Source of the DNA: an uncultured Phycisphaerales bacterium
Lineage (GTDB): Bacteria > Planctomycetota > Phycisphaerae > Phycisphaerales > UBA1924
Length of the DNA stretch: 36,431 nucleotides
Direction: 5' to 3'
Assembly: GCA_937858155.1 (NCBI GenBank)
Contig: CALLYM010000096.1
Location: forward strand, 1 to 36,431
Shown here: positions 3,678-27,499 of the stretch, in pieces
How positions within the stretch are numbered: the stretch's first letter is position 1
Layout: each line of letters opens with the position of its first letter
Position numbers and translations under genes: made by a program
The notes under the pieces: model-generated
Seen by the model: only the letters and a program-made list of their open reading frames with translations
The model's database searches: none
What the model was told of the DNA's origin: nothing

Positions 3678-4448
3678 TCATCGACTCCGGTAGAGCCCTT
3701 TCTTGCGAATAACGCCCGCGACGCCCGATGGCAGCGCCCGGAGGGCTTGGGCACGCCTCGCCCCGGCCAGCTGCTCACGCACGCGCGTCGACGAAACGTG
3801 CACGACCTTTCCGCACGCCAACCGCGGACCCCATGCTTGCAGCTCCTTCTCGCTCCAGAAGCCGTTGGCGTTCCGGCGAACTTCCTGCACGAGGGTCGCT
3901 GCGCTATCCACGCCCTCTCGGGGCATCACGATGGGTTGGGCGAGGCGCAGGAGCATCCGGGCGCTCCGCCAGCGATGGAAGGCCGCCGCCTGGTCGGCAC
4001 CGATGACCAGCCGCACACGCACGCCATTGCCGAGGAGGGCCCGCAGACGCCGCACTGTGTCGATCGTGAAGCTGGCACGACGGGCACCCCGCCTGCGCTG
4101 CCATGCGGCCCGGTCCACCTCGTCCGTCCAGACCGCCGCATCCTTCCGCCCCTTCAGCATTGCCCGCAACATCGCGACGCGGTCGGCATCGCCGGCGATG
4201 GGGCCGGTGTCCTTGAGCGGGCTGCGGGCCGCGGGCACATACAGACAGGGTGCAGGGGCCCCACGGCTTGCAAGCGATTGGCGGGCAAGGCGCGGGGCGG
4301 CAAGGTGGTACTGATGGGGTGGATCGAAGGAACCGCCGAAGAGAAGCAGAGCACCGGCACGCCGCGCCCGCTCCAGCACCACCCGTGGGATCGCCGTCAC
4401 CGGCGCACCGCTGCGTGCAGCAGGGCGTGTCTTTGAGCTCTTTTCCAC
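3678..4448 (-). CDS. nadD: Nicotinate-nucleotide adenylyltransferase
   Basis: NadD adenylates nicotinic acid mononucleotide to deamido-NAD in NAD biosynthesis. The protein shows the signature 'LLFGGSFDPPHQYHL' (nucleotidyltransferase GxFDPxHxxH), then 'RLVIGADQAAAFHRW' and the C-terminal 'VSSTRVREQL' (the SSTxIR motif). At 256 aa it is slightly longer than typical (~190-220) because of a basic N-terminal stretch of about 33 residues before the first beta strand. The start used here is a GTG, and a later GTG closer to the domain is possible. It is divergent from tRNA-Glu. Confidence 0.88.
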   Translation of the reverse strand: MEKSSKTRPAARSGAPVTAIPRVVLERARRAGALLLFGGSFDPPHQYHLAAPRLARQSLASRGAPAPCLYVPAARSPLKDTGPIAGDADRVAMLRAMLKGRKDAAVWTDEVDRAAWQRRRGARRASFTIDTVRRLRALLGNGVRVRLVIGADQAAAFHRWRSARMLLRLAQPIVMPREGVDSAATLVQEVRRNANGFWSEKELQAWGPRLACGKVVHVSSTRVREQLAGARRAQALRALPSGVAGVIRKKGLYRSR

Positions 4449-4499
4449 GCCGGAGCGTAACGCCCCAACCCCGCATCCGCGCTACTATGGGCCACAACC

Positions 4500-4574
4500 G
4501 GCCCCGTCGTCTAGCCTGGTCCAGGACACTACCCTTTCACGGTAGTGACATGGGTTCGAATCCCATCGGGGTCA
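4500..4574 (+). tRNA. tRNA-Glu (anticodon UUC)
   Basis: A full cloverleaf can be folded by eye. The acceptor arm GGCCCCG (4500-4506) pairs with CGGGGTC (4567-4573), with one G-U pair, and the discriminator is A4574. The D-arm sequence is GTCTAGCCTGGTCCAGGAC. The anticodon stem is CTACC/GGTAG with loop CTTTCAC, placing TTC at 4536-4538. The T-arm is ATGGG-TTCGAAT-CCCAT. CCA is not encoded, and the gene is followed by CTTTTT. There is no second copy of its 3' end in the window, so no sign of integration next to it. Confidence 0.96.
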
Positions 4575-4790
4575 CTTTTTCGCTCGGCACACGGCCGCAA
4601 CACGCGGCAAGTGCTTGGTTGTAAGGGCTCTCCGCATGGGGGGCCCGATTCGTTTTTCGGGTTGACTGGTGCGGCGAAAGAGGTCCGACCAGCAAACTCA
4701 TCGGCAAGGTGTAGCGCCCATCGACACCGTTTACGCATTGATGGCATCTTGCTTCAGCTTCCTCTTGCCATCGTCGCCACCCTCGTCGGC

Positions 4791-5030
4791 ATGCTCAGCT
4801 CGCTGTGCATGCTGGTGATGCTGATGGCGGGGCTGGCGAACGCGAAGCCGTCGCACATCCAGCAGGGCAAGTGGATGATGTGGGGAATCGTTCTTGTTCA
4901 GGTGGCTGCGGCCATTCTCGCGGTGTGGCTCATGGTTCATCGACGGCACTGGAGTGCGTGCATCGCAGGGATCGTACCGCTGGTAGTGGTTGTGTTGCTG
5001 GTTGTCATTCTCGTGAAAATCGAGTGGTAG
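4791..5030 (+). CDS. Small hydrophobic membrane protein, unknown function
   Basis: I do not recognise this gene. The frame encodes three hydrophobic segments separated by short basic loops: 'MLSSLCMLVMLMAGLANA', 'MMWGIVLVQVAAAILAVWLM' and 'IAGIVPLVVVVLLVVILV'. That suggests a small inner-membrane protein of 79 aa from the ATG at 4791. Neither this ATG nor a TTG at 4749 has a clear ribosome-binding site; the TTG start would make the first membrane segment longer. The stop lies 12 nt before the next gene, so the two are likely cotranscribed. The 216 nt between the tRNA and this start hold nothing I can identify. Confidence 0.5.
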   Translation: MLSSLCMLVMLMAGLANAKPSHIQQGKWMMWGIVLVQVAAAILAVWLMVHRRHWSACIAGIVPLVVVVLLVVILVKIEW

Positions 5031-5042
5031 CGGGAGTTCAGG

Positions 5043-5981
5043 ATGGGATCGTCACACCAGACCTTCGGGGGCCGGCTCGCGAATCTGGACTTCATCATGA
5101 AGGTCCCCAGAGAGTTCGTCGAAACTGCACTGCCGAAGGAGGATTCCAACTTCGACTCGCCCAGCGTGTGCGCTCCGCTGCTGCACCTGTCGTCCCCCGG
5201 GGCGAAATCGCAAGTCCACGTTGCATACCGCCCCGGGTACAACGAGGGGACGGTGCGCCAGTGGTTCGAGTATCTAACCGGGCAGCACGCCGTGCGGCTG
5301 CTGAGCATTGGTCCGGCGTACGTGGGTGGACTGCGGAAGAACCACCCGGCGATCGTCGCGACGGCTTTGCAAGAGCTGAAGGGTACCGAACTGGTCATGA
5401 GCTATGTCGCGTTTGAAGACGGGGGGCGCCTGGTGATTGCGCACGCCCAGTGCCCGCGCGAACTGGAGCCCCGCTTCATGCGATCAATGGAGCAGGGCAT
5501 TCACTCGATCGAACTGCTCCATCACAAAGGGCCCACGGCGGACCTTGAGGGGGACGGCAGAAAGTGGGACATCGACATCGTGCAGAGCACATGCAAGGAA
5601 GTCACTCCCGAGCAGGAGGCGGCGGCGTGGGCGCGCACTCAGGAGAAAGCGCGCGACGCCGCCCTGCAGAAGGCCGCGGGGTTGATCGCACACGACCAGT
5701 TCGACGAGGCTGCGCGGGTGGTGTTCGCGGCGGATGACAGCGGGAAAGCGCGAGCCGGACTGTCTGAACTCTTCATGGACGCACTGCGTGACCAGGTACG
5801 CCGTGACGGAAAACGCAAGCCGGCCGCGCCACGGGCGCTTGAGCTGTATCGCCGCGCTCTCCAGCACCGCCTGAGCACGTACCCGGACCCGCACACGCAG
5901 GATGAAGCGGACCGGTACGAGGCCGGGATGAACGAGGACCGTGCCGACGTCGCTGCGGTTCTGGGGTACGTGCCGGAGTAA
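5043..5981 (+). CDS. Hypothetical protein, 312 aa
   Basis: Unrecognised. There is no signal peptide and no membrane segment, so it is probably cytoplasmic. The first ~190 residues look like a mixed alpha/beta domain. From about residue 195 the protein is helical and Ala/Arg-rich ('EQEAAAWARTQEKARDAALQ', 'RALELYRRALQHRLSTYPDP'), possibly a TPR-like or coiled-coil part. A GGAG ribosome-binding site sits about 7 nt before the ATG. It follows the small membrane protein by 12 nt and precedes the DUF3592 gene by 5 nt, which argues for one operon. No function is proposed. Confidence 0.75.
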   Translation: MGSSHQTFGGRLANLDFIMKVPREFVETALPKEDSNFDSPSVCAPLLHLSSPGAKSQVHVAYRPGYNEGTVRQWFEYLTGQHAVRLLSIGPAYVGGLRKNHPAIVATALQELKGTELVMSYVAFEDGGRLVIAHAQCPRELEPRFMRSMEQGIHSIELLHHKGPTADLEGDGRKWDIDIVQSTCKEVTPEQEAAAWARTQEKARDAALQKAAGLIAHDQFDEAARVVFAADDSGKARAGLSELFMDALRDQVRRDGKRKPAAPRALELYRRALQHRLSTYPDPHTQDEADRYEAGMNEDRADVAAVLGYVPE

Positions 5982-5986
5982 TCACC

Positions 5987-6523
5987 ATGTTGCGGGATTG
6001 GTTCTCTCGACGCAGGGAAAGGAAGCGCTCCTTCATGGACAAGGTCATGCTTGTGCTGTTTGTTGTCATGTTTGGTGGGCTGGGCGTGATGCTTCTGGTC
6101 GTTGGCGTGAAGGAGTTAGTATTGCAACGGCGCATTGTCGCATCGGCAGTGCCAGTCGAGGCGGTGATTCTTTCGGCTGAGGTGGTATCGAGCACGTCGC
6201 GCGATTCCGACTACCGGCTCCTGCGTGACAACAGCACAACGTCGCACAGGCCGGAGGTGCGGTTCGCATACGCCGTCGACGGCGTGCGCTATGAGAGCGA
6301 CCTTCTGTACCCGACGGTGATCCTTCAGGGGTACGCCTCGCGCGAAAGTGCGGCTGAGGAGATCCGCGAATATGTCGCGGGCGCGGCCGTGCGTGCGTTT
6401 GTGGACCCATCCATCCCGCAGCGGGGTTTTCTGAGGCTCAAGTCTACATCCAACCCGGTGTGGTTCATGGTGGCCGGGCTGCTCACGCTGGTTTTTCTTG
6501 CAGTGGTGAGCAGGTTCCTGTAA
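5987..6523 (+). CDS. DUF3592-like membrane protein
   Basis: There is a basic N-terminus, then a membrane segment at about residues 19-43 ('VMLVLFVVMFGGLGVMLLVV'). A soluble region of about 100 residues follows ('PVEAVILSAEVVSSTS...HRPEVRFAYAVDGVRYESDL'), and a second membrane segment lies at the C-terminus ('FMVAGLLTLVFLAVVSRFL'). This layout, with 'V..F.Y.V.G..Y.S' in the middle and a cysteine-free 'FVDPSIPQRGFLR' near the end, is that of DUF3592 proteins, whose role is unknown. It follows the previous gene by 5 nt. Confidence 0.75.
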   Translation: MLRDWFSRRRERKRSFMDKVMLVLFVVMFGGLGVMLLVVGVKELVLQRRIVASAVPVEAVILSAEVVSSTSRDSDYRLLRDNSTTSHRPEVRFAYAVDGVRYESDLLYPTVILQGYASRESAAEEIREYVAGAAVRAFVDPSIPQRGFLRLKSTSNPVWFMVAGLLTLVFLAVVSRFL

Positions 6524-6686
6524 GGGCTGATTATGCACGTTCTTGGCTGCGAGTACGACAGGCGGTGAGGCAGTGTGGGGCGCGAACACTGCCGCTGGAC
6601 CGTGATTTTCAAGTTGAGTAGCTGGTCGCCGCGCGTTTGACGCATTGAGACCGAAACACCCGCACCCCCCACGAGGAACTTCCATT

Positions 6687-7103
6687 ATGGCAACCGCGCT
6701 CATCGAAGCACCCGCAAGCACTCCCAGCCAGACCATCCAGGTCCTCGCTCAGCTTGAGGCGTATGACGCCGTCCTGAACGACGATTACGCGTTTGTCGCG
6801 TACAAGGAGACGGATACGTCTTCGGGCGCGTGGCGTGTACGGATCAAAGCCCGGCACTTGACAGGGGTCGTCTTCGAGCCGGACGCGATGCGGTCCAACG
6901 CCCGGAGCACGGGCGCCCAGGGCAAAGCGTTCTTCCCCTGGGGGAACTGCATGGACCCAAGCGCGTCAGACCCGCGGAGCGTGCAGTACCGGGTTCATGT
7001 CAAGGACGGCCAGCCAGCGGAGATCGAGGTCTTCGTTCAACTGCGCAAGGCCGATGGCACGGCAGATGCGCCAAAGTCGGTCCGGTTCGCGTGGCCGAAG
7101 TGA
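6687..7103 (+). CDS. Hypothetical protein, 138 aa
   Basis: Unrecognised soluble protein. The start is the ATG at 6687, preceded by GAGGAA, rather than an in-frame ATG 14 codons upstream. It opens 'MATALIEAPASTPSQTIQVL' and contains an acidic/aromatic middle ('NDDYAFVAYKETDTSSGAWR') and a 'FFPWGNCMDPSASDPRS' stretch. No membrane segment or signal peptide is present. A 163-nt gap without visible features separates it from the DUF3592 gene, so it may have its own promoter. Confidence 0.65.
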   Translation: MATALIEAPASTPSQTIQVLAQLEAYDAVLNDDYAFVAYKETDTSSGAWRVRIKARHLTGVVFEPDAMRSNARSTGAQGKAFFPWGNCMDPSASDPRSVQYRVHVKDGQPAEIEVFVQLRKADGTADAPKSVRFAWPK

Positions 7104-7255
7104 CGCCCCAAACACGACCACGCAGACAAAGCACCTCTGTAAGCACTTGCCCGCTGTGGGCCGGAACCTGCACCGTCCGGTTCTGACACACTGGGCCTTC
7201 CCGACCATTCTTGCTTGTGCGGAGCCCGCCGCGGCTGCATGACGCACCACGAAAA

Positions 7256-7276
7256 CACCCCGCGCTATGCGGGGTG
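7256..7276 (-). terminator. Intrinsic terminator of the dockerin-like gene
   Basis: A perfect 8-bp stem CACCCCGC/GCGGGGTG with a 5-nt loop lies 28 nt past the stop of the minus-strand gene at 7304. On that strand it is followed by TTTTC. On the plus strand it is followed only by CTTGT, so it may also act weakly for the gene ending at 7103. Confidence 0.65.
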
Positions 7277-7303
7277 CTTGTAATGGAAATCAAGCATCTT
7301 GCG

Positions 7304-7747
7304 TCAGAGACACGGCCCGCCGTCGAACATGCTCAGGAGCGCATCGATGTCTGCCGTGTCGGGAGCGAAGCCGTCGTTGTTGAAGTCGATGTCACCGCAG
7401 TAAGGGTCGTTGCTGCATGGCCCACCGGAAAGCACGGCGACGAAGTCGTCGATGTCTCGTGTATCAGGGAACTCACCGTCGCGGTTGAAGTCGATGGTGT
7501 CGCAGGCGCTCGCGACGTCGCTTGCCGTGAAGCCGCCTTCGAGCGTGTACCCGCCGCCCGTAAGGGCCCCCGCGCCCGACGCCGTGACGGTTCCTTCCAA
7601 GGCGTACCCGCCGCCGGCAAGCACACCCGACCCGCCTGCGATGAAGGACCAGTCGATCTCATCGGAATGTGCGCCGCCAGTCAGCCCGCAGAACGCCAAC
7701 GCGTACGCGAGAAGCGGACGGGCGTGGGTAAGCACGCCGGGAGTCAT
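7304..7747 (-). CDS. Small secreted protein with GG-Y/F-LEG repeat and C-terminal dockerin-like repeat
   Basis: This 147-aa protein has an N-terminal signal-like segment (about residues 8-27). A duplicated Gly-rich motif follows ('[16 protein letters not shown]' then '[16 protein letters not shown]'), resembling the 'GGxFxLxGTIGQPDAG...GGxYxLxGGFW' motif of planctomycete and verrucomicrobial secreted proteins. The end carries two calcium-loop-like units, '[20 protein letters not shown]' and '[20 protein letters not shown]', each closing with 'GGPC'. This is the dockerin-like type found in Phycisphaerae, probably binding Ca2+ and mediating extracellular attachment; the partner is unknown. Its ATG overlaps the TGA of the collagen-like gene (ATGA, 7744-7747), so translation is probably coupled. 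Confidence 0.8.
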
Positions 7748-9570
7748 TGAAACCCTCCCGCGTCCGCGGTGTGGACCGGTGCGGGCGCGGGCTGGGCCGG
7801 CACCTCCGAAACGGGCCCGTCAGGCAGGTCAAGACCAGCCTGGCCCTGAGCGTCCACACCCTCAAACCTGCTTGCCATGAGGAACGAGTTGGGCAGCACG
7901 CGCGTCGGCGCATCGTCGGGCGAGTTCTGCGACCACTGGAACTGGAGCACGCCCGGTGTCGCCGCGTTTGTCACGATGCCCCGCACGCGGATGACGTCCG
8001 TGCTGCCGGCGGTGATCGCGTTGGTGACGCTCGTGCCGCTCACAGTGACAAGAGCGTTGTGCACAATCGCCGTGCCCTCCTGGAACTCGCTGACCCAATG
8101 GAGGGTCGCTCCCTCGGGCGCGCGGAACGCGAAACGGATATCCGGCGTGCTGCTCGCGCCGGTGCAGAGGATGAACGCTTCAAACTCCCACGCCTCCCCC
8201 GCCCCGATCGCAAGTGAGAGGTGGTCATCGTCCTGCAATGTCGTGTCGTTGCCCACACCCTCGGCCGCGGTCTTGCGGACTAGCGTTGCGCCTGTACCGA
8301 CGGGGCCGCGTGGCCCTGCCGGACCGGGGGGGCCAGCGGGGCCCTGCGGGCCAACATCTCCCTTTGCTCCTGGCTCGCCCCGCGGGCCGTCACGCCCGAC
8401 CGCTCCTTCTGGTCCTTGAGGACCTGCGGGACCCATAGGACCGCGTGCGCCGTCCTTGCCGCTCGCGCCACTTGGACCGGGAGCACCCTGAGGACCAGCA
8501 GGTCCGGCGGGGCCTGGTGGGCCTTGCTCGCCATCTTTTCCGTTTGAGCCTGCGGGCCCTTGCAGACCCGCTGGGCCCGCTTCGCCCCGCGCGCCGACAG
8601 CGCCGGCTGGGCCGATCGGGCCTGCAGGTCCTCGCGGACCCTGAGCACCATCCTTGCCATTGGGCCCTATGGGGCCAACCGGTCCTTGCAGGCCAGGCTT
8701 GCCCTCGGCGCCAGCGGGGCCTTGCGGTCCGGTCGGTCCCTGCGGACCCATCACGCCGTCCTTGCCGGCTGCCCCCGCAGGCCCAACGGGACCAACAGCA
8801 CCTTGCGGTCCTCGCTTGCCTTCTCCACCTGCTGGGCCTGGCAACCCTGGACTGCCCTGCGCACCGTCCTTGCCGTTTGCACCTGCCGGTCCCACCGGGC
8901 CCATCGCTCCAGCAGGCCCCACAGGCCCGCGTTCGCCTTCCTTGCCATCACGGCCGTCCTTGCCTGCTGGACCTTGCGGTCCTGCTGGGCCAATAGGTCC
9001 CATGGAACCGTTGAGTCCTGGAGCTCCATCCTTGCCTGCGGGACCCTGTGGCCCAGCCGGGCCGACCGCACCTGTCGCGCCAGCAGGGCCGATCTGTCCG
9101 GCAGGACCCGTGGCGCCGGTGGCTCCCGTTGGACCTGCAGGACCCTGCGGTCCGGCTGGCCCTTCACTGCCCGTCAGTGCACGCAGCGCGTACGGCGCGG
9201 GCGTCATCGCCTGTCGGGGCGAGAGCGTGGTGTACTGCCCTCCGATCCCCACGTCCACTTCAAGCCAGCGCGCTTCTCCACTGAACGGTGCGGCACCAAA
9301 GTCAAGCAAGACGGCGAACTGACCGTTCACAACCGCCACGTCGGTGGCTTCCAGCTCCTGGCCGACCTGGCGCCCACCGCCGGATGCGTCGTACAAGCGG
9401 AAGCGAACATCGCGCGTGCCATTCACGAGCTCTGCGCCGTGGCGTAGGCGTCCCTGGTATGTGAACGCCGACCCAGCGGGCTCGCCCGCCACGACCGGGC
9501 GTGCAGACCATACAGCACAGGCACCCAGGGCGACCGCAAGGAACAACGACGCGATGCGATCACGGTGCAT
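7744..9570 (-). CDS. Secreted collagen-like (Gly-X-Y) protein
   Basis: The protein has 608 aa. A signal peptide covers roughly residues 1-29. An N-terminal globular domain (about 35-133) begins '[20 protein letters not shown]' and ends '[20 protein letters not shown]', a domain common on planctomycete exported proteins. Residues 134-424 are 97 perfect Gly-X-Y triplets rich in GPA, GPQ and GKD, which should form a collagen-type triple helix. The C-terminal ~180 residues look like a beta-rich globular domain, possibly for trimerisation or binding (inference). There is no anchor or sorting signal, so it is secreted or held by partners. GGAG lies about 7 nt before the ATG. The stop overlaps the start of the dockerin-like gene. 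Confidence 0.9.
8299..9171 (-). repeat. Collagen-type Gly-X-Y repeat region (97 triplets)
   Basis: The codons for 97 consecutive Gly-X-Y triplets, counted by hand, contain no interruption. 'GKD' recurs seven times, at triplets 16, 24, 34, 46, 58, 71 and 80. The low-complexity, GC-rich coding repeat also opens long meaningless frames on the other strand. Confidence 0.9.
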
Positions 9571-17561: not shown

Positions 17562-18377
17562 ATGGCCCACATGCCGCATGAGCCGGAGGCGTTCGCCGAG
17601 TGCGTGGCAGACATGCTGCGCAGATTGCAACCCGAGTACGCGATCGACCTGGTCGGTCCTCGGGAACTCCTGGTCAACGGGCGCCGCCTGGACCTTGAGA
17701 ACTTGTTCCGCATGGTGAACCACGAGCCGACGCGCGGCACCGAGATCGTGGAGCATTACCTTGAACAGCTGTTCGCCGGCGAGGCGGTTCAGCTGTCGAC
17801 CATGTCGTTCGACTTTGCACGCCCGCGCATCATGCCGCGCATCCAGCCCGAGACCATCTTCGAGCATCTCTCGCGGGAGCAGGTAGCGCACGTGCCGTGG
17901 GTGAACGACACTGTTGTGGTCTTTGTCACCGACCTGCCCCACATGACCGTGTCCATCACCACCGAGCAGCTCGTGCGGTGGAAGGTCACCGTCGACGCGG
18001 TCGAGGAGATCGCGCGGGAGAACCTGGACAACTACGCACCGGAGCTTGAAATCCAGCTCGTCGAGAGCAAAGAGGGTGGGCGTGCTGCCATCCTCGGTCA
18101 GCACGACGGCTACGACGCGGCCCGGCTCATGCTCAGCGGGCTCTACCAGCGCCTCGCGCCTCAGCTCGGGGGTGACTTCTACGTTGCTGTGCCCGCTCGC
18201 GATATGTTCGTGGCGTTCAGCCGCGGCCCGGAGCCCTTTGTCCGTCGCCTACGCGAGCGCGTGGACGCTGACTATCGCCGGCTGCCCTACCCGATCTGCC
18301 CCGACTTCTTCTTTGTGACCCGCGACGGCGTCGCCGGGACGAAGGAGATCACGATGGAGCACGGGGAAGCGGCCTGA
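17562..18377 (+). CDS. DUF1444 family protein
   Basis: This 271-aa soluble protein has the DUF1444 pattern (Bacillus YtpQ-like): an N-terminal part with '[20 protein letters not shown]', then '[20 protein letters not shown]' and the central '[20 protein letters not shown]'. The C-terminal part is '[20 protein letters not shown]', ending in '[11 protein letters not shown]'. The molecular role of the family is unknown. The ATG has GGTGAG a few bases upstream. It is transcribed divergently from acpP and converges on recG. Confidence 0.8.
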
Positions 18378-18401
18378 CACTCCGATTGCATTCCAAATGG
18401 A

Positions 18402-18425
18402 GCGCCTGGGCAGACGCCCGGGTGC
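18402..18425. terminator. Hairpin between converging DUF1444 and recG genes
   Basis: GCGCCTGGGC/GCCCGGGTGC can form a 10-bp stem (two G-U pairs) with an AGAC loop in the 69-nt gap between the two stops. T-runs are weak on both sides (CTTGTCGTT rightwards), so it is only a likely bidirectional terminator. Confidence 0.45.
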
Positions 18426-18446
18426 CTTGTCGTTCGCAAACCTCCA

Positions 18447-20669
18447 CTATCCCACGTCGGCAAGGCCGAGGAATTGAGCATGCGTGCGCATGAGGCGCCG
18501 GCGGAGCACGGTCTCGTCCGCGCGGTCCAGGCGGGGGCTCCGCGCGATCCACGCCTGCGCATCCCGGCGGGCGAGGTTCAGGAGTTCTCGATCACGTGTG
18601 GGGTCCGCGACCCGGAAGGGGGGCAGCCCGGACTGCTTTAAGCCGAATACCTCTCCCATGCCCCGGATTTCCAGGTCCTTTTCCGCGAGCGCAAAACCGT
18701 CGCTTACCCCTTCCATGACCGCCAGCCGGGCCCTCCCCTCTGGCGTCACGGGATCGGCGATGAGATAGCACACGCTGGATGCCGAGCCTCTCCCAACGCG
18801 CCCACGAAGCTGGTGGAGCTGGGCCAGTCCAAAGCGGTCTGCCTGCTCCACGATCATGATCGAGGCGTTGGGCACGTCGACACCAACTTCGATAACCGTT
18901 GTCGCCACAAGTGCGTCGATCACGCCGCTTCGGAACCGCTCCATCACCGCTTCGCGCACCGATCGTGGGAGCTGGGCGTGAAGCACGGCGGTTCGGCGCC
19001 CGGGGATGTACGCGTTGTCCAACGCGCGCTGAGCAGTTGCGACATCCACCAAGGGAGTGGAGGTCGTCGGGTCCTGCACCGGGTCGACGGCCGGTACAAC
19101 AACATACCCCTGCTGACCCTGCGCGATGCGCGCCGAAAGGTCCGCATAGGCAGCACGCCGCTCCTGGCTGGAGCGTACTGATGTCGTGATCGGCTGCCTC
19201 CCCGGTGGTAAGCCCTGGATGACCGAGATGTCCAGGTCGCCGAACAGCGTGAGCGCGAGCGAACGCGGGATGGGCGTGGCGGTCATGACAAGGACGTGGG
19301 GAGTGACGCCGCCACCCTCGCCGCCACGTGTGGCCTGCGCGCGGAGCGATGCCCGCTGGGACACGCCGAAGCGGTGCTGCTCGTCGATCACCGCAACCGC
19401 GAGCGACTTGAACTGCACCGTGTCGGTCAGCAGGGCGTGCGTGCCGATCAGGATGTCGATCGTCCCCTCGGCGAGCGAGGCGACGATGCGTTCGCGTTCA
19501 GGCTGAGAGGTGCTGCCGGTCAGGAGTTCGACCCGGGTCCGGGAATTCGCCAGAATGCCCCCGATGCTGGCGAAGTGCTGCTCCGCGAGGATTTCCGTCG
19601 GAGCCATAAGGCTGGCCTGCTGCCCGCTCGCGACCGCCAGGAGCATGGCGTAGAGCGCCACGATGGTCTTGCCGCTGCCGACATCGCCCTGGATCAGACG
19701 GTTGGTGGGTGTCGCGCTGGCAAGATCACGCTGCAGGTCCTGTATCACAGACTCCTGGCCCCTGGTCAGCACGTAAGGAAAGCGCGCCCGGATGCGGGCG
19801 TCCACCTCCGGTGTCACCTTGAGTGCCGGGCTCGTGTGCAGCGCCCTCAGCTGCACACGCTTCATTTGCACGCCAAGCTGCAGCAGCAGGAGTTCGTCGT
19901 ACGCCAGACGGCGGCGGGAAGAGAGCACCTCTTGTTCAGCTCCGCCACTGGATTGATCTCTGGGCGCGTGCTGCATGCGGTACGCCTCGGCGAGGCTTGG
20001 AAGGTCACGGTCCCTCCGGAACTGCTCGGGCAGGTGGTCCTCGAGCAACCGCAACGCGCCCGGGAGCACCTTCTGTACCGCACGTTCAACCGCGCCGCTG
20101 TTGACGTGCTCGTTCGCCGAGTACACCGGACGCAGCCGACCCAGGGCCGGGGCGGGCTCCTCGGCTTCAAACGCGAGGAATTCAAGCTTGGGGTTTACCA
20201 TCTGCACGCCCGGGCCGCGACGCTGGGGCTTCCCGTGCACGCGGATGAGGGCGCCCGGCACGACCTTGTCGTGCAGGAACATCATGTTGAACCACACCAC
20301 GTCGAGGCGACCGGTGTGGTCCTGCAACACCGCCTCGAGCCGCGGGCGGGGCCCCCGTGGGACCGGACGCACGGCGGTCACTTCCCCCCGCGCTGAGCCG
20401 AGGGCGCCGACCTTCAGCTTGTCGATGGTGGACTCGTCCGCGATACGCTCATGGCGGATAGGCAGGTGCGCTATCAGCCGTCCGACGTTGGTGAGGCCCA
20501 GGGTCGCCAGCAGGTCCGCTTGCCGCGCGGTTACCACCCCGGTTTCTGCAAGGGGCGTGGTCAAGGAAATGTCGGGGCGGAGCGGCAAGGTGATTCGGCT
20601 GGTCAATGGCAAAGCATTACGGAGCGGATCACTGCAGGCAACAGGATGGTACCGAGTGCGCGGCCACAC
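18447..20669 (-). CDS. recG: ATP-dependent DNA helicase RecG
   Basis: This superfamily 2 helicase remodels stalled forks and Holliday junctions. The N-terminal wedge/OB part ('GSARGEVTAVRP', 'LQDHTGRLDVVWFNMMFLHD') is followed by the motor. The motor has Walker A 'GDVGSGKT' at residues 328-335, motif II 'IDEQHRFG', motif III 'MTATPIPRSL', and motif VI 'QLHQLRGRVGRG'. The length of 740 aa fits (about 680-720, plus an uncertain start). The start shown is a GTG 8 nt after the DUF971 stop with a poor ribosome-binding site; a later TTG near 'LPLRPDISL' is possible. It is the last gene of the long minus-strand run. Confidence 0.93.
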   Translation of the reverse strand: MWPRTRYHPVACSDPLRNALPLTSRITLPLRPDISLTTPLAETGVVTARQADLLATLGLTNVGRLIAHLPIRHERIADESTIDKLKVGALGSARGEVTAVRPVPRGPRPRLEAVLQDHTGRLDVVWFNMMFLHDKVVPGALIRVHGKPQRRGPGVQMVNPKLEFLAFEAEEPAPALGRLRPVYSANEHVNSGAVERAVQKVLPGALRLLEDHLPEQFRRDRDLPSLAEAYRMQHAPRDQSSGGAEQEVLSSRRRLAYDELLLLQLGVQMKRVQLRALHTSPALKVTPEVDARIRARFPYVLTRGQESVIQDLQRDLASATPTNRLIQGDVGSGKTIVALYAMLLAVASGQQASLMAPTEILAEQHFASIGGILANSRTRVELLTGSTSQPERERIVASLAEGTIDILIGTHALLTDTVQFKSLAVAVIDEQHRFGVSQRASLRAQATRGGEGGGVTPHVLVMTATPIPRSLALTLFGDLDISVIQGLPPGRQPITTSVRSSQERRAAYADLSARIAQGQQGYVVVPAVDPVQDPTTSTPLVDVATAQRALDNAYIPGRRTAVLHAQLPRSVREAVMERFRSGVIDALVATTVIEVGVDVPNASIMIVEQADRFGLAQLHQLRGRVGRGSASSVCYLIADPVTPEGRARLAVMEGVSDGFALAEKDLEIRGMGEVFGLKQSGLPPFRVADPTRDRELLNLARRDAQAWIARSPRLDRADETVLRRRLMRTHAQFLGLADVG

Positions 20670-21071: not shown

Positions 21072-21953
21072 TCACACCAGCCCGAGGGCAAAGAACGCGG
21101 CTGTGAACGCCAAGTCCGCGATCACGATCGCCACGACGCATTGAACGACAGTGCCGGTGGTCGCCCTGCCCACACCCGCCGCACCCCCGTCCACTTTCAG
21201 ACCGTTGGTGCAGGCAATGACGCCGATGAGCACCCCGAACACCGCGCCCTTGGACACGCCCGTGGCGAAGTCCACGAGCTTGGCCTGGTCGAGCATGTTG
21301 CTCATGAAGTTGGCGTAGGGGATGGAGAGAGCCGTCACAGAGATCGTGAGCGCAGCGGCGATCGACACCACGCACGAAATGACCGAGAGGCATGTCATGC
21401 TGAGGATGGACGCGATAAGTCGCGGGACAACCAGGAACCGCACGGGGTCCAACGCGTGGGCCTCCAGCGCCTCGACCTCCTCGCTCACCACCATCGTGCC
21501 GATCTCGGCCGCGATGCTCGCGCCAGCGAAGCCCGTGAGGACAATCGCGCCGATGAGGGGCCCCAGTTCCCGCAGCACCGCGACCGAAACAATATTTGCG
21601 ACGAGCGCCTTCTGCCCGAACTGGTCCAATGGGGGTGACAGTTGAAATGCGAGGATGAGTCCGACACACCCGGACACGAGCGACACAATGGCAACGCTGC
21701 GGACCCCGACGCGGACAATCTGCGTCACGATCGCCGCCCGCCCGATCCGGACCTTGGGCTTCATCGTCCCGCGCCCGATCCACGCCAGCGATTCGATGAA
21801 CAGGAACAACGCCGAGCCGATGTGCTCGACGGTGTCGAGCGTGAGCGCCCCGATGCCCTCGACAGGTGCGAGCACTTTATGGAAAAGCCCGCCACCCCCG
21901 CCCACCGCTGGTGTGCCACTGTCCCCGGGAGTGTTCGCTGTTTCCGGCGGCAC
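21072..21953 (-). CDS. MlaE-like ABC transporter permease (lipid transport)
   Basis: This 293-aa membrane protein has the MlaE (DUF140) permease signature: 'LRELGPLIGAIVLTGFAGAS' followed by 'AAEIGTMVVSEEVEALEAHA' and 'LVVPRLIASILSMTCLS'. Five or more hydrophobic segments fit a half-transporter of the Mla type, which moves phospholipids between membranes. The GTG start has GGAGGA 4 nt upstream and lies only 11 nt after the STAS gene stop. The ATPase (MlaF) and MCE protein (MlaD) are not in this window. The first ~30 residues form a Gly/Pro-rich extension before the first helix. Confidence 0.87.
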   Translation of the reverse strand: MPPETANTPGDSGTPAVGGGGGLFHKVLAPVEGIGALTLDTVEHIGSALFLFIESLAWIGRGTMKPKVRIGRAAIVTQIVRVGVRSVAIVSLVSGCVGLILAFQLSPPLDQFGQKALVANIVSVAVLRELGPLIGAIVLTGFAGASIAAEIGTMVVSEEVEALEAHALDPVRFLVVPRLIASILSMTCLSVISCVVSIAAALTISVTALSIPYANFMSNMLDQAKLVDFATGVSKGAVFGVLIGVIACTNGLKVDGGAAGVGRATTGTVVQCVVAIVIADLAFTAAFFALGLV

Positions 21954-21964
21954 GAGTCCTCCCG

Positions 21965-22306
21965 CTAGCGCTTCGCCTCGTCCAGCGTCGTCGCGATTCT
22001 GAAGACCGAAGCCAGGCGTGCAATGTCAAAGACCGCCTTCACCCGCGGCTGCAGGTTGCACAGCACCAGCTCGACCGACGCATCCCGTGAGCCGCGGAGC
22101 GATTCCACAAGGGTCGCGAGGCCTGCCGTGGCCATGTAGCCCACGCCAGCAAGGTCTACCACGACACGCCGCGGTCTCTTCTCGATTGCCCCTCGCAGCG
22201 CCGAACGGAGGACGGGCGACTCGTGGGTGCCCATATCGCCGCTGGGGCTGAGGATGATCATGCCGTCTTCCTCGACCGTTGCCACAGTTGCCGCGTGGTC
22301 AGCCAT
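21965..22306 (-). CDS. STAS-domain protein (anti-anti-sigma / MlaB-like)
   Basis: This 113-aa single STAS domain has the typical course 'GMIILSPSGDMGTHESPVLR', 'RRVVVDLAGVGYMATAGLAT', 'VELVLCNLQPRVKAVFDIAR'. In SpoIIAA/RsbV the motif is Asp-Ser-Ser/Thr-Gly-Leu; here it is 'ATAGL', so the possible phosphoacceptor is Thr60 and the preceding Asp is Ala. The 'TAGL' sequence is closer to the MlaB STAS subunit. The ATG at 22306 is chosen over upstream in-frame starts because GGGAG lies about 6 nt before it. It overlaps the upstream kinase by 8 nt and precedes the MlaE-like permease by 11 nt. It could serve partner switching, lipid transport, or both. Confidence 0.85.
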   Translation of the reverse strand: MADHAATVATVEEDGMIILSPSGDMGTHESPVLRSALRGAIEKRPRRVVVDLAGVGYMATAGLATLVESLRGSRDASVELVLCNLQPRVKAVFDIARLASVFRIATTLDEAKR

Positions 22307-22832
22307 TCCCATCTCCCTTGCGCGTGGCGCACGAACCAATCCCCGTTTGCAGACCCCCGCAGCAGCGCTCAGTCTCCGCCGCGCCGCACACCGCGGGAGA
22401 GGACAGGTACTTGGCCATGGTCAGCCGCATGCCCTGCCCCGGCGGCGTCTCATATGCCGCGCTGTCCATCACCTGCTGGATAATGTGAACGCCCAGCCCG
22501 CCCGGACGGATATCCGCCAGATCACGGCTTCGGATGCTCGATGGATCAACCTGTTTCCCCCAGTCGTCGATCGTGAACGAAAGCCCAGGGCCCTTCACTC
22601 CGTCTGTGACGGGAGTGATCCTGACGGAAATCCGGCCATCCATGCGCCCTGCATAGCCGTGCTTGATGACGTTGGCCAACGCCTCGTCCACTGCTAGGAC
22701 AACCTGAGATGTCTGCATGTCGGCGTAGCCGTGCCGTCGGCATACTTCGCCGACAAACACCCGGACGGCACACAGGTAACGGGGATCACTCGGCAGTTCG
22801 AGCGCCACCTGGGATGAAGGCGTCGTTGTCAC
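22299..22832 (-). CDS. Anti-sigma-type serine kinase (HATPase, RsbW/SpoIIAB-like)
   Basis: This GHKL ATPase fold has the N box 'VVLAVDEALANVIKHGY' (Glu50, Asn54), G1 'IDDWGK' (Asp90, Gly92) and G2 'RPGGLGVHIIQQVMD'. Proteins of this family bind and phosphorylate STAS partners and often bind a sigma factor. The ATPase domain ends near residue 146 and is followed by a 31-residue tail with four cysteines (149, 157, 158, 168), which is unusual. I chose the GTG at 22832 because GGAGG lies about 7 nt upstream; it overlaps the stop of the lipoprotein gene as GTGA. The stop overlaps the STAS start by 8 nt. No sigma-factor gene is adjacent. Confidence 0.88.
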   Translation of the reverse strand: MTTTPSSQVALELPSDPRYLCAVRVFVGEVCRRHGYADMQTSQVVLAVDEALANVIKHGYAGRMDGRISVRITPVTDGVKGPGLSFTIDDWGKQVDPSSIRSRDLADIRPGGLGVHIIQQVMDSAAYETPPGQGMRLTMAKYLSSPAVCGAAETERCCGGLQTGIGSCATRKGDGNG

Positions 22833-23200
22833 GTGCCACCCTCCGATGCGCCCTTTGCGTATTCCACCCATCTCGCGACCGCGGCCTCCCGTTCGTAGGG
22901 CTCCGCATGGGGGTTGTACCCAAGTTCAGTGCCCGTGAGTCGCTCCAGCGTGCGGATAGCCAGCACGCGTGTGGTTGGGTCGTCGCTTTCCAGCATCCGC
23001 ACGAGGTTTGGAACGTCCTGCGTACGCCCTGCCGCCGCGGTGGCCACAATGGCCGCGTTCCGAGCGCCGGGCTCGGGCGAGTCGTACGAAGGAGTGATCG
23101 TCTGGGCACACGCCGCCAAGGAGACCGGCGCACAGAGGATGCAGAGTGCTGGAGCACTGGGCATGAAGAAGAGTAGCGGGCGAATCTTCCGCGTGCGCAC
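22829..23200 (-). CDS. HEAT-repeat-like lipoprotein
   Basis: This 123-aa protein has a basic start (GTG, 'MRTRKIRPLLFF'), a hydrophobic stretch and a lipobox-like 'VSLAAC', so it is probably acylated at Cys31. The body contains one HEAT-like pair of helices: 'GARNAAIVATAAAGRTQDVP' and 'LVRMLESDDPTTRVLAIRTL'. A C-terminal helix reads 'YEREAAVARWVEYAKGA'. It may bind a protein partner in the periplasm (inference). An ATG at 23164 is an alternative start, but it would remove the basic n-region. Its stop overlaps the kinase start (GTGA). It follows flgE by 27 nt. Confidence 0.7.
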   Translation of the reverse strand: MRTRKIRPLLFFMPSAPALCILCAPVSLAACAQTITPSYDSPEPGARNAAIVATAAAGRTQDVPNLVRMLESDDPTTRVLAIRTLERLTGTELGYNPHAEPYEREAAVARWVEYAKGASEGGT

Positions 23201-23227: not shown

Positions 23228-24985
23228 TCAACGTCCCAGCACCAAGAGCTGTTGCATCAGGTCGTCGGTCGTCTTGATCACACGGGAATTCGCCGAGTAC
23301 CCGGTGCTTGAGAGGATCATCTTGATGAACTCTTCGCCAAGGTCCACATTGGAAAGTTCCAGCGAACCCGCGACGATCCGACCCGCGTTGAAGGTCCCCG
23401 GCCCGATGACGGCCGGCTCACCGCTGTTTGAACCGACCGAGAACAGGTTCCCACCCTCCTCCACCAGCCCCTCGGGGTTGGAGAATGTTGCCAGTGCCAC
23501 CCGTCCCAGCGTGCGCGTTAGGCCGTTTGAGAATGCACCCTCGATAGTTCCGTCCGCGTCGACGCCGAATGCCGTCAATGTACCGATCGGGGACCCGTCG
23601 CGGAACGTGGCGGCGATCTCCGACGATGTGTCGGTCAGCGCCGTGACGTTGTCGGTGGTTGACCCCAGTGAAAGCGCAAACGTGAGGGGAGTCGTGGCGC
23701 CCGTGCCTGAGCGGTCGATCGTGACCGTGATGGGCGCGGTTGTTGTCAGCTGCCCATCGTTATCGAAAGACACCGTTCCGCTCGCGACCTGAAGCCCCCC
23801 CACCATGTTGTCGGGGCTTTCCACGGCGTACCGCCAGGTCGTACCTGTATCCGCCCTTCCCACCAGGGACATCGTGAGGTTGACCTCCACGGGCGTGCCC
23901 AGAGAGTCGTACGCCATGAATGTCGTACGGACCGCTTCCCCGTCCGCGCTGGCTGCCTTGGTGGGTGTCAGCGGATAACCGACCAGGGACCCCGAGGAGG
24001 AGAGCGTGCGAATGTCCGCGGGGTCGATCGTGATGTCGTTCGACGTGCCCGTATTGCCCGTAATCGTAAGAATCCCGGTAGTGGTGTCGAGGCTCAGGCC
24101 AGGCGTGGCAGCGTTGGGATTTGCGCCCGTGGTGGTGTCGATGCCCAGCGATGCCGCGAAGAAGTCCATCAGGTCCTGCACGGTGCTGGTCGCTGTCACG
24201 TCAAAAGCGGCGGTCGGGAGCAGCTTGTTTCCCTTCTGAATGTTCTTGAGTTCGATCTGCTGGCCCGCCGCCCACAAGGGTGTGTCCGACCCAGGCTGCT
24301 GCGGATCCTCGATGTCGGCCAGCAGGCTGGTGAGCTCCATGACATTGCCCGGGCCCGGGGCCGGCGATGCGGACGAGATAACGTTCAGTCCAGTTGTGGC
24401 GCTACCGCTCAGTGCAATGCTGCTTCCGCGCGTGGGCAGAGCGCCGTCCGCGTCCAGGTTGCCGCTCATGCGCACGTTCTTCGTCGCTTCGGCGATTGTC
24501 AGCTGACCGAGCGGGATGCGCAGAGGTACCAAGGAGCCGGTGTTGATGTTGAACTCGTCGTCCACCCCGTAACCCATCAAAAGGTCTCCGCTCACGCTCG
24601 TGAGATCGTTGTTGGCGTTGGGCCGGAATGAGCCATCGCGCGTGTAATAGTCGCGCTCCCCGCGGCGCACGACAAAGAACCCGGAGCCATCCACGGCCAT
24701 GTCGCGCTGGTCCCCGGTCACAGAAATCGTCCCGCTTGTCATGTTCCGCTGTGTGCCGCCAGTATTGACGCCGTAGCCGATCTGGAACGGGTTTGTACCA
24801 CCGTTGATGTCGCCCGGCGGCGTGCCGCCCGAGACGGTTTTACTGTACATCGTGGAGAACAGCAGGCGGCTGCTCTTGAACGCCGTCGTATTGACGTTGG
24901 CGATATTGTTGCCGATGACGTCGAGGTTCCGCGCGTGTGCGTTGAGGCCCGAAAGGCCCGTGTAGAGTGCGGTGGTGGATGCCAT
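23228..24985 (-). CDS. flgE: Flagellar hook protein FlgE
   Basis: The N-terminal rod/hook motif 'TALYTGLSGLNAHARNLDVI' and 'GNNIANVNTTAFKSSRLLFS' are followed by 'MAVDGSGFFVVRRGERDYYT' and 'TRDGSFRPNANN'. The C-terminus has 'LSNVDLGEEFIKMILSSTGY' and 'SANSRVIKTTDDLMQQLLVL', the D0 helix. At 585 aa it is longer than the enteric hook protein (~400), with an enlarged middle domain, as in many planctomycetes. It assembles as the hook outside the cell after export by the flagellar apparatus. GGGAG lies about 8 nt before the ATG. A sigma-54 motif lies 85 nt upstream of the ATG. Confidence 0.95.
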   Translation of the reverse strand: MASTTALYTGLSGLNAHARNLDVIGNNIANVNTTAFKSSRLLFSTMYSKTVSGGTPPGDINGGTNPFQIGYGVNTGGTQRNMTSGTISVTGDQRDMAVDGSGFFVVRRGERDYYTRDGSFRPNANNDLTSVSGDLLMGYGVDDEFNINTGSLVPLRIPLGQLTIAEATKNVRMSGNLDADGALPTRGSSIALSGSATTGLNVISSASPAPGPGNVMELTSLLADIEDPQQPGSDTPLWAAGQQIELKNIQKGNKLLPTAAFDVTATSTVQDLMDFFAASLGIDTTTGANPNAATPGLSLDTTTGILTITGNTGTSNDITIDPADIRTLSSSGSLVGYPLTPTKAASADGEAVRTTFMAYDSLGTPVEVNLTMSLVGRADTGTTWRYAVESPDNMVGGLQVASGTVSFDNDGQLTTTAPITVTIDRSGTGATTPLTFALSLGSTTDNVTALTDTSSEIAATFRDGSPIGTLTAFGVDADGTIEGAFSNGLTRTLGRVALATFSNPEGLVEEGGNLFSVGSNSGEPAVIGPGTFNAGRIVAGSLELSNVDLGEEFIKMILSSTGYSANSRVIKTTDDLMQQLLVLGR

Positions 24986-25069
24986 GGGGATGCTCCCTGG
25001 AACAAAGGTGCGTGAGCTTCCGTGCGAACAACCGCCCGGCTCCGCGGGTGGGTAGATAGCCGCCTGTCA

Positions 25070-25085
25070 CGCAATCCGCGTGCCC
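25070..25085 (-). promoter_or_regulatory. Sigma-54 -24/-12 promoter candidate for flgE
   Basis: The minus strand reads GGGCACGCGGATTGCG: GGCAC, five bases, TTGC. Predicted transcription start is near 25059, giving a leader of about 74 nt, normal for a gene with its own ribosome-binding site. Fourteen of 16 positions match the site before flgB. Confidence 0.65.
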
Positions 25086-25133
25086 TCCGAGGCTGTAGAG
25101 AGCGGCGCATCGAGACTGCTTGCGCATGAAGCG

Positions 25134-25155
25134 ACCGGCCTTTCTGAGGGCCGGT
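25134..25155 (-). terminator. Hairpin downstream of the flgD-side genes
   Basis: ACCGGCC/GGCCGGT can form a 7-bp stem with an 8-nt loop just beyond the stop at 25179 and before the flgE sigma-54 site. There is no T-run on the minus strand, so it may only attenuate read-through or protect the 3' end. Confidence 0.35.
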
Positions 25156-25178
25156 GCTGCCATTTCATGAGTCTGCAT

Positions 25179-25664
25179 TCACGCTCTTTGCGCGAGGGTC
25201 CGCCGAAGCGATGCGTTCATACCCGCCGTGGGAGGAAGGCCGAGCATTTGCGCCGTTGCGCTCTGTCCTGCGCCCGCGACCGTCACGATCGCGTCCACAT
25301 CGTTCATTACTCCTGTGGTAGACATGTCCACCGGCCCCAGTACCGTCCGTGTGCCAACGTCCATGCGCAGGGCCTGCCCATCGATGAGGAAAACAGCCCG
25401 TCCGGCGCCGTTCGCCTCCGCGATGTCCGCGGCCGCACTGAGGCGTTCGACCTGGTCCTGGGTCAGTGTGATGCCGGACTCTTTCGTTGCCTGCACCTGG
25501 ACACCGCTCGCAACACTCCCCGCCCGGGCCTTGTCCAGTATGTTCTGAAAAGTCTCGCTCTGCGCGAGCTGGCGGATGATCGCCTGAGAGGCGACCCGCT
25601 GCGCGTTGCCGCTCCCGATGAGAGCCAGCGCGTCTGCGCCACCGATGAAGGGTGTGCTGGTCAT
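25179..25664 (-). CDS. TIGR02530-like flagellar operon protein
   Basis: This 161-aa protein sits between flgD and flgE, the usual place of the conserved flagellar operon protein TIGR02530. The core matches in outline: 'GITLTQDQVERLSAAADIAE', 'GAGRAVFLIDGQALRMDVGT', 'RTVLGPVDMSTTGVMNDVDA'. The usual 'SKHAxxRL' stretch before it is degenerate here ('VQVQATKESG'). The function of the family is not established; a role in hook assembly is likely from context. GGAG lies about 9 nt before the ATG, in the 12-nt gap to flgD. Confidence 0.7.
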   Translation of the reverse strand: MTSTPFIGGADALALIGSGNAQRVASQAIIRQLAQSETFQNILDKARAGSVASGVQVQATKESGITLTQDQVERLSAAADIAEANGAGRAVFLIDGQALRMDVGTRTVLGPVDMSTTGVMNDVDAIVTVAGAGQSATAQMLGLPPTAGMNASLRRTLAQRA

Positions 25665-25676
25665 GCGCGATCTCCT

Positions 25677-26099
25677 TCAGGGGGTGGTCGTGGTCGCCAC
25701 AGGCTTGGTGATCGTGTCGAGCCAGCCGATGGGGATGCGTTCCCCGGTCTCCAGCGTCAGCACGGGCCCGTTGGCGGTGCGCGACACCGACTTCACCGTC
25801 CCCGCGACGCGCTCGTAGGCGTCGCTCACGCCGGACACCGGCTGGCCGATCAGCGTGGCGGCGGAGGCAAATTCGTTTTGTGTCACCAGGTTCTTGAGGC
25901 TGCCCGACAGGTCTGTGTCACTCTGTATCGAGCGGATTGTGGATATCTGCTGGAGCAGCGCGTTGGTATCGTTGGGACTCATCGGGTCCTGGTGCGTGAG
26001 CTCACTGAAAATGATGCGCGTGAAGTCCTCCGTCGACATCGCGGAGAACCCGCTCGTGGGCGTCGAAGTGGACGTAGACCCAACCGCGTTGACAGCCAT
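25677..26099 (-). CDS. flgD: Flagellar hook-capping protein FlgD (short form)
   Basis: The N-terminal FlgD motif is clear: 'TEDFTRIIFSELTHQDPMSP' and 'NDTNALLQQISTIRSIQSDT', then 'ASAATLIGQPVSGV'. FlgD sits at the tip of the growing hook and guides hook-subunit assembly. At 140 aa it is much shorter than enteric FlgD (~230) and lacks the C-terminal Tudor/FnIII-like domains, a known variation. I use the ATG at 26099, with GAGGAG 9 nt upstream, rather than an in-frame ATG 19 codons earlier. The gap to fliK is 110 nt. Confidence 0.88.
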   Translation of the reverse strand: MAVNAVGSTSTSTPTSGFSAMSTEDFTRIIFSELTHQDPMSPNDTNALLQQISTIRSIQSDTDLSGSLKNLVTQNEFASAATLIGQPVSGVSDAYERVAGTVKSVSRTANGPVLTLETGERIPIGWLDTITKPVATTTTP

Positions 26100-26209
26100 G
26101 GCAAAGCTCCTCTTCTGGTGCCCGCGCGCACTGCACTCGGCCGGTGCGCAAGGCACGGCGGTCCGCCGCGCGCCAAAGCCCGATCCCCATCAGACCGCTG
26201 GTGTTGGTA

Positions 26210-27499
26210 CTACGCGACCCATTCCCATGCGCCGTCGACGCTTGTCATCGACGCGGGAACATCGGCCCACAGCGGCGCCTGGTTTTCCTGTGCATCCGTG
26301 CCGGATTCCGCCCAGTCTCCGCCGGGCGATGCTGTCCCCAGGGCGCTCCGCGCTTCCTGGTCATCGCGCGATGACTGCCCGGATCCGTCCGGTGTCATCG
26401 CCTGGGCTTCCGTGCCCGAAAGAGGTGCATGCCGCGCGTCCTGCGCAGGCGCCGGTGCTCCGCCCGGCTCGACCACAATGCGCTCCACCGTCAGTCCCTG
26501 CGCTTCCAGCGCAGTCTTCAGGAGGGGCAAAGAATCCACCAGCAATCCTCGTGCCGAATCTGTCTGTGCCCGCAGCGAAGCCTCCACGGTGGAGCCTTGC
26601 AGGCGAAGGTCTACCCGCAACTGACCCAGCCCCTCCGGCCGCAACCGCATCGTGACTTCACCGCCGCCCTTCTTGATGGCGATGCCTAGCCCTCGCGCCG
26701 CTGCGTCCGCCACCTGCTTCTGCTGTACCTGCGCCCGTGTGGGAGTTGCTGCGTGCGCCAACTTGTTGATAAATGCCCGGGAAGATGCGGCACGCTGAGC
26801 AGTCACACTCGTGTTCACGGCTGAAGTCTGCTGCTGTCCGGTCGGACCCCTTGCCAGACCGACTGCCGAAACAGGCCCCACGCCCTTCGATTCAGTGCTC
26901 GCGCTCGGATTCTTCGTGATAGGCTGACCGGCGAACGGCGACGCGGACATGGGCGTGTCTGGAGCGTTCTTATGCGCTTGCTCGCCACCACCTCGCGGAT
27001 GAGATGTCGCCTTGTCTTCCCGTTGGATAGGTGCCTGCCCGGCGCTCTTTGACTGCCGCCCATCCGTGTGAACCTCGACCCCACGCTCGTCCTTGTCGTC
27101 CTTTCGTTGCGATTGGCGCTGCTCCACTGATTCTCGCACGCCCTCGCCCTTGTTCGGCGCAGTCCGCAGTTCCTTTTCCGCAAGGTTCGTCGGATTGATC
27201 GCGGCCCCAGCAAGCAGTTCGTCGCCGCTCAGCTGCGCACCGGCCCCCCGCACCTTTGCCTTTGCAAGACGCGAGGGCGTGCCCTCTTCCTTGGCGGATG
27301 TATCCGCGCCAGGAAGAGAGGACGTGCGCATCAGCGCGATGAGCTGGGCAAAGGATGCCGTACCCGCGTCATCCCTCGCCCGCGATTCCTCCGCCTGGAG
27401 TTGATCCAAGTCCTGCGCACTTCCGCGCAGGCCCGGCGCAGGGCGTGCCGCTCCTTGCGCCCTTGAACCTGCAACCGCCGTGCTTTCGCCTGCAATCAT
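26210..27499 (-). CDS. fliK: Flagellar hook-length control protein FliK
   Basis: This 429-aa protein has a long, low-complexity, charged and Ser/Gly-rich N-terminus, the 'ruler' part. The C-terminal Flg_hook domain is seen in 'GGEVTMRLRPEGLGQLRVDL', 'RLQGSTVEASLRAQTDSARG' and 'LLVDSLPLLKTALEAQGLTV'. FliK measures hook length and switches export specificity. After the domain there is a 100-residue tail. The ATG overlaps the TGA of the MotE-like gene (ATGA). A sigma-54 motif lies within the coding sequence at 26542-26557, pointing toward flgD. Confidence 0.88.
   Translation of the reverse strand: MIAGESTAVAGSRAQGAARPAPGLRGSAQDLDQLQAEESRARDDAGTASFAQLIALMRTSSLPGADTSAKEEGTPSRLAKAKVRGAGAQLSGDELLAGAAINPTNLAEKELRTAPNKGEGVRESVEQRQSQRKDDKDERGVEVHTDGRQSKSAGQAPIQREDKATSHPRGGGEQAHKNAPDTPMSASPFAGQPITKNPSASTESKGVGPVSAVGLARGPTGQQQTSAVNTSVTAQRAASSRAFINKLAHAATPTRAQVQQKQVADAAARGLGIAIKKGGGEVTMRLRPEGLGQLRVDLRLQGSTVEASLRAQTDSARGLLVDSLPLLKTALEAQGLTVERIVVEPGGAPAPAQDARHAPLSGTEAQAMTPDGSGQSSRDDQEARSALGTASPGGDWAESGTDAQENQAPLWADVPASMTSVDGAWEWVA
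26542..26557 (-). promoter_or_regulatory. Sigma-54 -24/-12 motif inside fliK, toward flgD
   Basis: The minus strand reads CGGCACGAGGATTGCT: GGCAC, five bases, TTGC. Predicted transcription start is near 26531, about 430 nt before the flgD ATG. It lies in coding sequence and could be chance, but spacing and most bases match the other three sites. Confidence 0.4.

Follow-up and report, generated by a model that had tools for sequence, protein, structure and literature searches.

A module of four genes, encoding a small lipoprotein, an RsbW/SpoIIAB-type serine kinase (KIN), a STAS protein and an MlaE-family lipid permease, was found in the window, i.e., the whole stretch of 36,431 nucleotides that was analysed, which is one entire contig (G000:C96) of an 83% complete genome consisting of 296 contigs. 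The STAS protein is quite probably an MlaB-like subunit of an Mla lipid ABC transporter, with the kinase as its dedicated switch. More broadly, the module probably represents an old and widespread operon type of Planctomycetota and some other phyla, in which an RsbW-type kinase dedicated to an MlaB-like subunit allows partner switching to gate a lipid ABC transporter directly, at the protein level. The linkage of the genes, the catalytic and acceptor residues of the kinase and STAS proteins, and the co-occurrence of the module with a C-terminal extension of the ATPase MlaF are observed directly in the genomes compared. Synteny and the matching extension of MlaF give strong support, at the sequence level, to the proposal made in the initial annotation that the kinase could act on the STAS subunit and so control lipid transport.

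Organisation of the module

The genes of the module overlap or abut one another (Table 1), and the ORFs and the Pfam matches (HATPase_c_2 and STAS) place the STAS gene directly after the RsbW-type kinase gene. The gene junctions are as initially annotated: the GTG start of the kinase overlaps the stop codon of the lipoprotein gene (GTGA), the kinase and STAS genes share 8 nt, and the permease gene begins 11 nt after the STAS gene. A longer reading frame of the kinase, starting from an ATG at 22871, is also open. On the other side of the module, flagellar genes encoding FlgE, FlgD and FliK (window positions 23228–27499) run into it with a gap of 27 nt. A functional link to the flagellum was rejected, since these flagellar genes were not found beside the module in any of the relatives examined; the RecG and GBBH-like genes of the window were likewise not found at the module loci of order-level relatives.

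Table 1. Coordinates of the module genes in the window and of the second Mla set in the same genome
Feature	Position	Strand	Details
Whole module, lipoprotein to kinase to STAS to MlaE	23200-21072	(-)	Genes overlapping or abutting
Small lipoprotein, 123 aa, one HEAT-like helical unit	22829..23200	(-)	ORF; first gene of the module
RsbW/SpoIIAB-type serine kinase (KIN)	22299..22832	(-)	GTG start at 22832, stop at 22299
STAS protein, 113 aa	21965..22306	(-)	ATG at 22306, stop at 21965; putative phosphoacceptor Thr60 in YMATAGL
Codon ACG of putatively phosphorylated Thr60 of STAS (ATG numbering)	22127..22129	(-)	Sequence and alignments
MlaE-family lipid ABC permease (MlaE-A)	21072..21953	(-)	GTG start at 21953; PF02405
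Second Mla set (MlaE-B; MlaF-B with MlaD-B)	G000:C66:7591-8547; G000:C261 ~17952-19829		

The lipoprotein carries the lipobox LAAC, whose cysteine is nearly invariant among 44 relatives, and gave a single weak Pfam match to HEAT_2 (E 3e-4), which is below the cut-off. Its structural model consists of four helices in a HEAT-like arrangement (pLDDT 87), and a fold search with this model returned no match below E 0.001. Among the best 80 of at least 464 kinase relatives, the lipoprotein gene lies upstream of the kinase in 69 loci. A role as an envelope-side sensor could be proposed for this protein, speculatively.

Kinase and STAS protein

The kinase matches HATPase_c_2 (Pfam, E 1.9e-24), and its best solved relative in a family-profile search is Bacillus subtilis RsbW (6m36, E 1.4e-17). 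Its scores fall under the curated NCBIfam equivalog cut-offs for RsbW (67 vs 145 bits and 64 vs 155 bits), and it is therefore a relative of RsbW rather than RsbW itself. The Glu and Asn of the N-box, the G1 Asp and the PGGLG motif (G2 GGLG) are invariant in 111 of 111 aligned kinases, a set biased towards motif conservation, since the search patterns behind it include parts of the kinase motifs; the same residues are also invariant in an alignment of 24 sequences drawn by synteny around MlaE, which is free of this bias. Kinases linked to MlaE form a group separate from 13 further RsbW-like paralogues found in the same genomes, with weak node support (0.54). Orphan kinases of the family, with intact motifs and with no adjoining STAS or MlaE-A gene, are located beside guaA at L262/L238 (G012:C12) and at L147.

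The STAS protein was recognised by the Pfam STAS model (E 2.2e-19) and scored above the cut-off of TIGR00377 (75.9 vs 53.45 bits). Among proteins of solved structure, TM1442 and SpoIIAA are closest to it in sequence. The structural model (pLDDT 92) includes the final strand (residues 103–105) and helix (residues 108–112), and in fold comparison it reached Z 18–19 against RsbV/SpoIIAA-type chains versus 13.4 against Pseudomonas aeruginosa MlaB. The initial annotation had considered the ATAGL site to resemble MlaB more than RsbV. This view had to be abandoned: the RsbV/SpoIIAA motif MDSSG stands at the phosphosite in about 94 of the 112 related proteins, which rules out ATAGL as an MlaB signature and makes ATAG of the window a local variant, and the sequence, the family model and the predicted fold are all nearer RsbV/SpoIIAA. 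By sequence and predicted fold, the protein thus belongs with RsbV/SpoIIAA and not with E. coli-type MlaB. The acceptor position is occupied by Ser or Thr in all 112 aligned proteins (Ser in 96, Thr in 16), and in the alignment it matches Thr52 of MlaB. An anti-anti-sigma-type STAS protein appears to be doing the job of MlaB.

Conservation of the gene order

The permease MlaE-A was assigned by PF02405 (E 3.4e-62, 210 bits vs a cut-off of 22.5) and lies under the cut-off of the narrower model TIGR00056 (183 vs 212). Its orthologues, with 51–79% identity, are present in 35 of 40 order-level relatives, giving 36 genomes with that of the window. In 31 of these 36, the window included, the KIN-STAS pair is found upstream of MlaE. 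In three others (G014, G021 and G022) the pair is kept and located away from MlaE, and in the remaining two (G030, locus L071, and G033, locus L075) the kinase has been lost, with the lipoprotein, STAS and MlaE genes still together; the latter loci are natural kinase-free versions for comparison. At L043, in a genome of the same genus (G001), about 3.9 kb of other sequence lies between STAS and MlaE (~4204–8129).

Named genome contigs were scanned with the kinase alignment only; this yielded at least 464 relatives, of which the 80 closest matches were analysed. Among these 80, STAS is next door in 79, MlaE likewise in 72, and MlaE is followed by MlaF in 7, including contigs of Sedimentisphaerales, Caldithrix and KSB1. 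The usual neighbour of the module is guaA, seen at 25 of 37 order-level loci and 55 of 80 named-contig loci.

An evenly drawn sample of the phylum served as a check on the closest-match bias of the 80-locus set. Of the 19 best kinases whose neighbourhood was read in this sample, 17 have STAS and MlaE directly adjoining; one of the other two (G086) has the same genes in a different order, and one has STAS only. MlaE adjoins two of nine weaker kinases, and the MlaE-linked kinases cover 12 families. A single KIN-STAS-MlaE-MlaF-MlaD operon was found in 12 of 16 loci taken at full length. At L304, L305 and L306 (family f54), MlaD comes next after KIN-STAS-MlaE, and no match to MlaF separates them.

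Related genomes are non-independent samples, which applies to all these counts. The order is nevertheless conserved in other Phycisphaerae (31 of 36 genomes of the order), in 12 families and in other phyla, and hence is not unique to the contig. Its recurrence over families, classes and phyla rules out a chance operon.

Mla sets and the C-terminal extension of MlaF

In the order to which the window belongs, the operon is split: in most genomes the MlaF-A gene is followed immediately by that of a long MlaD-A, and MlaE does not come between the two. In the genome of the window, MlaF-A and MlaD-A lie on G000:C84 and G000:C93, respectively, and MlaF is thus on another contig than the module. In G022 (L053, G022:C40) MlaE-A adjoins MlaD-A, which supports one common transporter.

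Two types of MlaF occur in the order: MlaF-A, which is found in 36 genomes and forms one clade (support 0.89), and MlaF-B, paired with another MlaD. A distinct MlaE paralogue, MlaE-B, of about 31% identity, is also present in many order-level relatives. The genome of the window carries such a second Mla set (Table 1), near which no STAS gene was seen. A complete mla operon with its own mlaB elsewhere in the genome had been named as an outcome that would speak against the module; the second Mla set does exist, but the curated MlaB model NF033618 gave no match over the cut-off in any of the 41 genomes, and MlaF-B is without the C-terminal extension.

In E. coli, Tyr261, Leu265 and Leu266 of the C-terminal extension of MlaF pack into the MlaF-MlaB groove (PMC7367683). 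An extension of this type was identified in the alignment in 36 of 36 MlaF-A and in 0 of 24 MlaF-B sequences, 22–23 of the latter stopping before the interface positions. At the equivalents of these three residues, MlaF-A has Tyr or Phe (33/36), Leu (35/36) and a hydrophobic residue (36/36); G250-P251 is present in all 36, and R-Q-F is also kept in essentially all of them. The sets of genomes with MlaE-A and with MlaF-A are identical (36/36 vs 0/5 among 41 genomes), with a Fisher p of 1e-6 that is too optimistic because the genomes share descent. Across the phylum, MlaF of the one-piece operons ends much like E. coli MlaF, e.g., GKAEGPIPLRLSSRDFAEDLLGG. G036, which lacks MlaE-A and MlaF-A, carries an operon of its own, in one piece, that includes kinase, STAS and an extension-bearing MlaF.

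Proposed mechanism and alternative explanations

The module probably provides half of an Mla-type phospholipid ABC transporter, namely its regulatory and membrane components. MlaE-A would operate with MlaF-A as ATPase and MlaD-A as MCE protein, the genes of which lie elsewhere in the genome. STAS would bind MlaF-A at a site formed by the helical subdomain and the C-terminal extension and, being MlaB-like, would be required for assembly and activity of the transporter. The RsbW-type kinase is predicted to bind STAS and to phosphorylate Thr60 (Ser in most relatives). By analogy with E. coli MlaB, phosphorylated STAS would be kept off MlaF, and transport would be turned down. A PP2C phosphatase encoded elsewhere could reset STAS; the genome of the window encodes eight such phosphatases of the SpoIIE type. 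Overall, partner switching would operate on an ABC transporter in place of a sigma factor.

In E. coli, MlaF does not enter the complex without MlaB, the T52E substitution in MlaB lowers MlaF binding, and T52A greatly lowers ATPase activity (PMC7367683, PMC5016091). The T52A protein is inactive though it is not phosphorylatable (PMC7367683), and Thr52 thus matters for catalysis too, apart from phosphorylation. The partner of STAS in the module is likely to be MlaF, from its separate locus, and not MlaE; action on MlaE alone is less likely, because in E. coli it is MlaF that MlaB binds (PMC7367683) and because the module and the MlaF extension occur together. Several observations count against a kinase switch: the location of MlaF on another contig in the genome of the window, the retention of STAS-MlaE in G030 and G033 without a kinase, the orphan kinases of G012 and L147, the former genome lacking MlaE-A and MlaF-A, and the RsbV/SpoIIAA architecture of the STAS protein, which is longer than E. 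coli MlaB.

The resemblance of the kinase and STAS proteins to RsbW and RsbV/SpoIIAA would also fit a classical anti-sigma/anti-anti-sigma pair, in which the kinase holds a distant sigma factor, STAS frees it, and MlaE only shares the transcript, perhaps as part of an envelope-stress regulon. At least two sigma-70-type factors matching the SigBFG model weakly are encoded in each of the 41 genomes, but in the strict test no SigB/F/G-family factor exceeded the cut-off in any of them. The absence of an adjacent sigma factor, remarked on in the initial annotation, extends to all 117 module neighbourhoods (37 order-level and 80 from named contigs) searched by tblastn with three query types. In addition, MlaF and MlaD follow directly within the operon in many families, and the genome set coincides exactly with the MlaF extension, which makes such a pair unlikely. 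A different role of the kinase could be proposed if STAS is a working MlaB-like subunit and the kinase sequesters it stoichiometrically or senses nucleotide charge, with phosphorylation being minor. RsbW/SpoIIAB-type proteins of B. subtilis form a tight complex with the STAS protein they pair with and sense ATP/ADP, and the overlap of the KIN and STAS genes implies a coupled dose; however, sequestration alone would not need the invariant acceptor Ser/Thr and catalytic Glu, and we regard this possibility as quite unlikely.

The same gene linkage could be expected if STAS interacted both with MlaF, as part of the transporter, and with the kinase, as part of unrelated signalling, so that the status of transport would be reported, not controlled, and the lipoprotein encoded by the first gene could relay envelope information. 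Apart from Mla parts, however, no output gene was seen repeatedly downstream of KIN-STAS, and this scenario is very improbable. Finally, the flagellar neighbours in the window, missing in relatives, are themselves incidental, and one could suppose that the module genes are also functionally unlinked operon neighbours; since their linkage holds over 12 families of the phylum and in other phyla, in several rearranged backgrounds, there is hardly any room for this explanation.

Relation to known systems

The module shares with E. coli MlaFEDB the MlaE permease, an MCE protein and an MlaF with the same C-terminal extension motif, and with E. coli MlaB a small STAS protein having Ser/Thr at the Thr52 position. 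Unlike the module, E. coli MlaFEDB includes no kinase and has mlaC in the operon, whereas in the module the STAS gene precedes mlaE and comes after the kinase and lipoprotein genes. E. coli MlaB is also shorter, being without the last strand and helix (PMC7367683), while the STAS protein of the module is RsbV-like. In the B. subtilis pairs RsbW-RsbV and SpoIIAB-SpoIIAA, as in the module, a HATPase_c_2 kinase is paired with a STAS protein bearing a DSSG-type phosphosite; the module differs from these partner switches in having no adjacent sigma factor, the next gene encoding a lipid ABC permease, often together with its ATPase and MCE partner.

According to a survey (PMC10665443), MlaABC is found mostly in Proteobacteria, and minimal MlaEFD systems occur in most diderm bacteria, e.g., Veillonella. 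The module resembles these minimal systems in its MlaE, MlaF and long MlaD, but the section of the survey consulted describes no STAS protein or kinase with them. STAS-MlaE fusion proteins of the PF13466 type have been noted (PMC5016091), in which, as in the module, STAS is tied to MlaE; unlike in the module, the two are fused and no kinase is in the neighbourhood. One such fusion was observed at L256 (G012:C40), with Gly at the phosphosite (CDGAG), and is followed by an MlaF without the extension. Hence, the parts are known, and their combination appears to be undescribed; no paper dealing with both RsbW and MlaE, or with both MlaB and RsbV, was found in the literature searched, which comprised few subscription papers and no preprints.

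Control of MlaB through phosphorylation of Thr52 has been proposed in two eLife papers (PMC5016091, PMC7367683), neither of which had a kinase or direct evidence to offer. In the loci compared here, a kinase of precisely the type required repeatedly adjoins the matching STAS and transporter genes. If the proposed mechanism is true, partner switching acts on an ABC transporter and not on transcription, and the way in which lipid traffic towards and away from the outer membrane is raised or lowered would become directly accessible. The occurrence of this gene block in planctomycetes and some other bacteria suggests that phosphorylation of a small subunit switches inter-membrane lipid transport, a mode of control that has long been suspected and never tied to a kinase.
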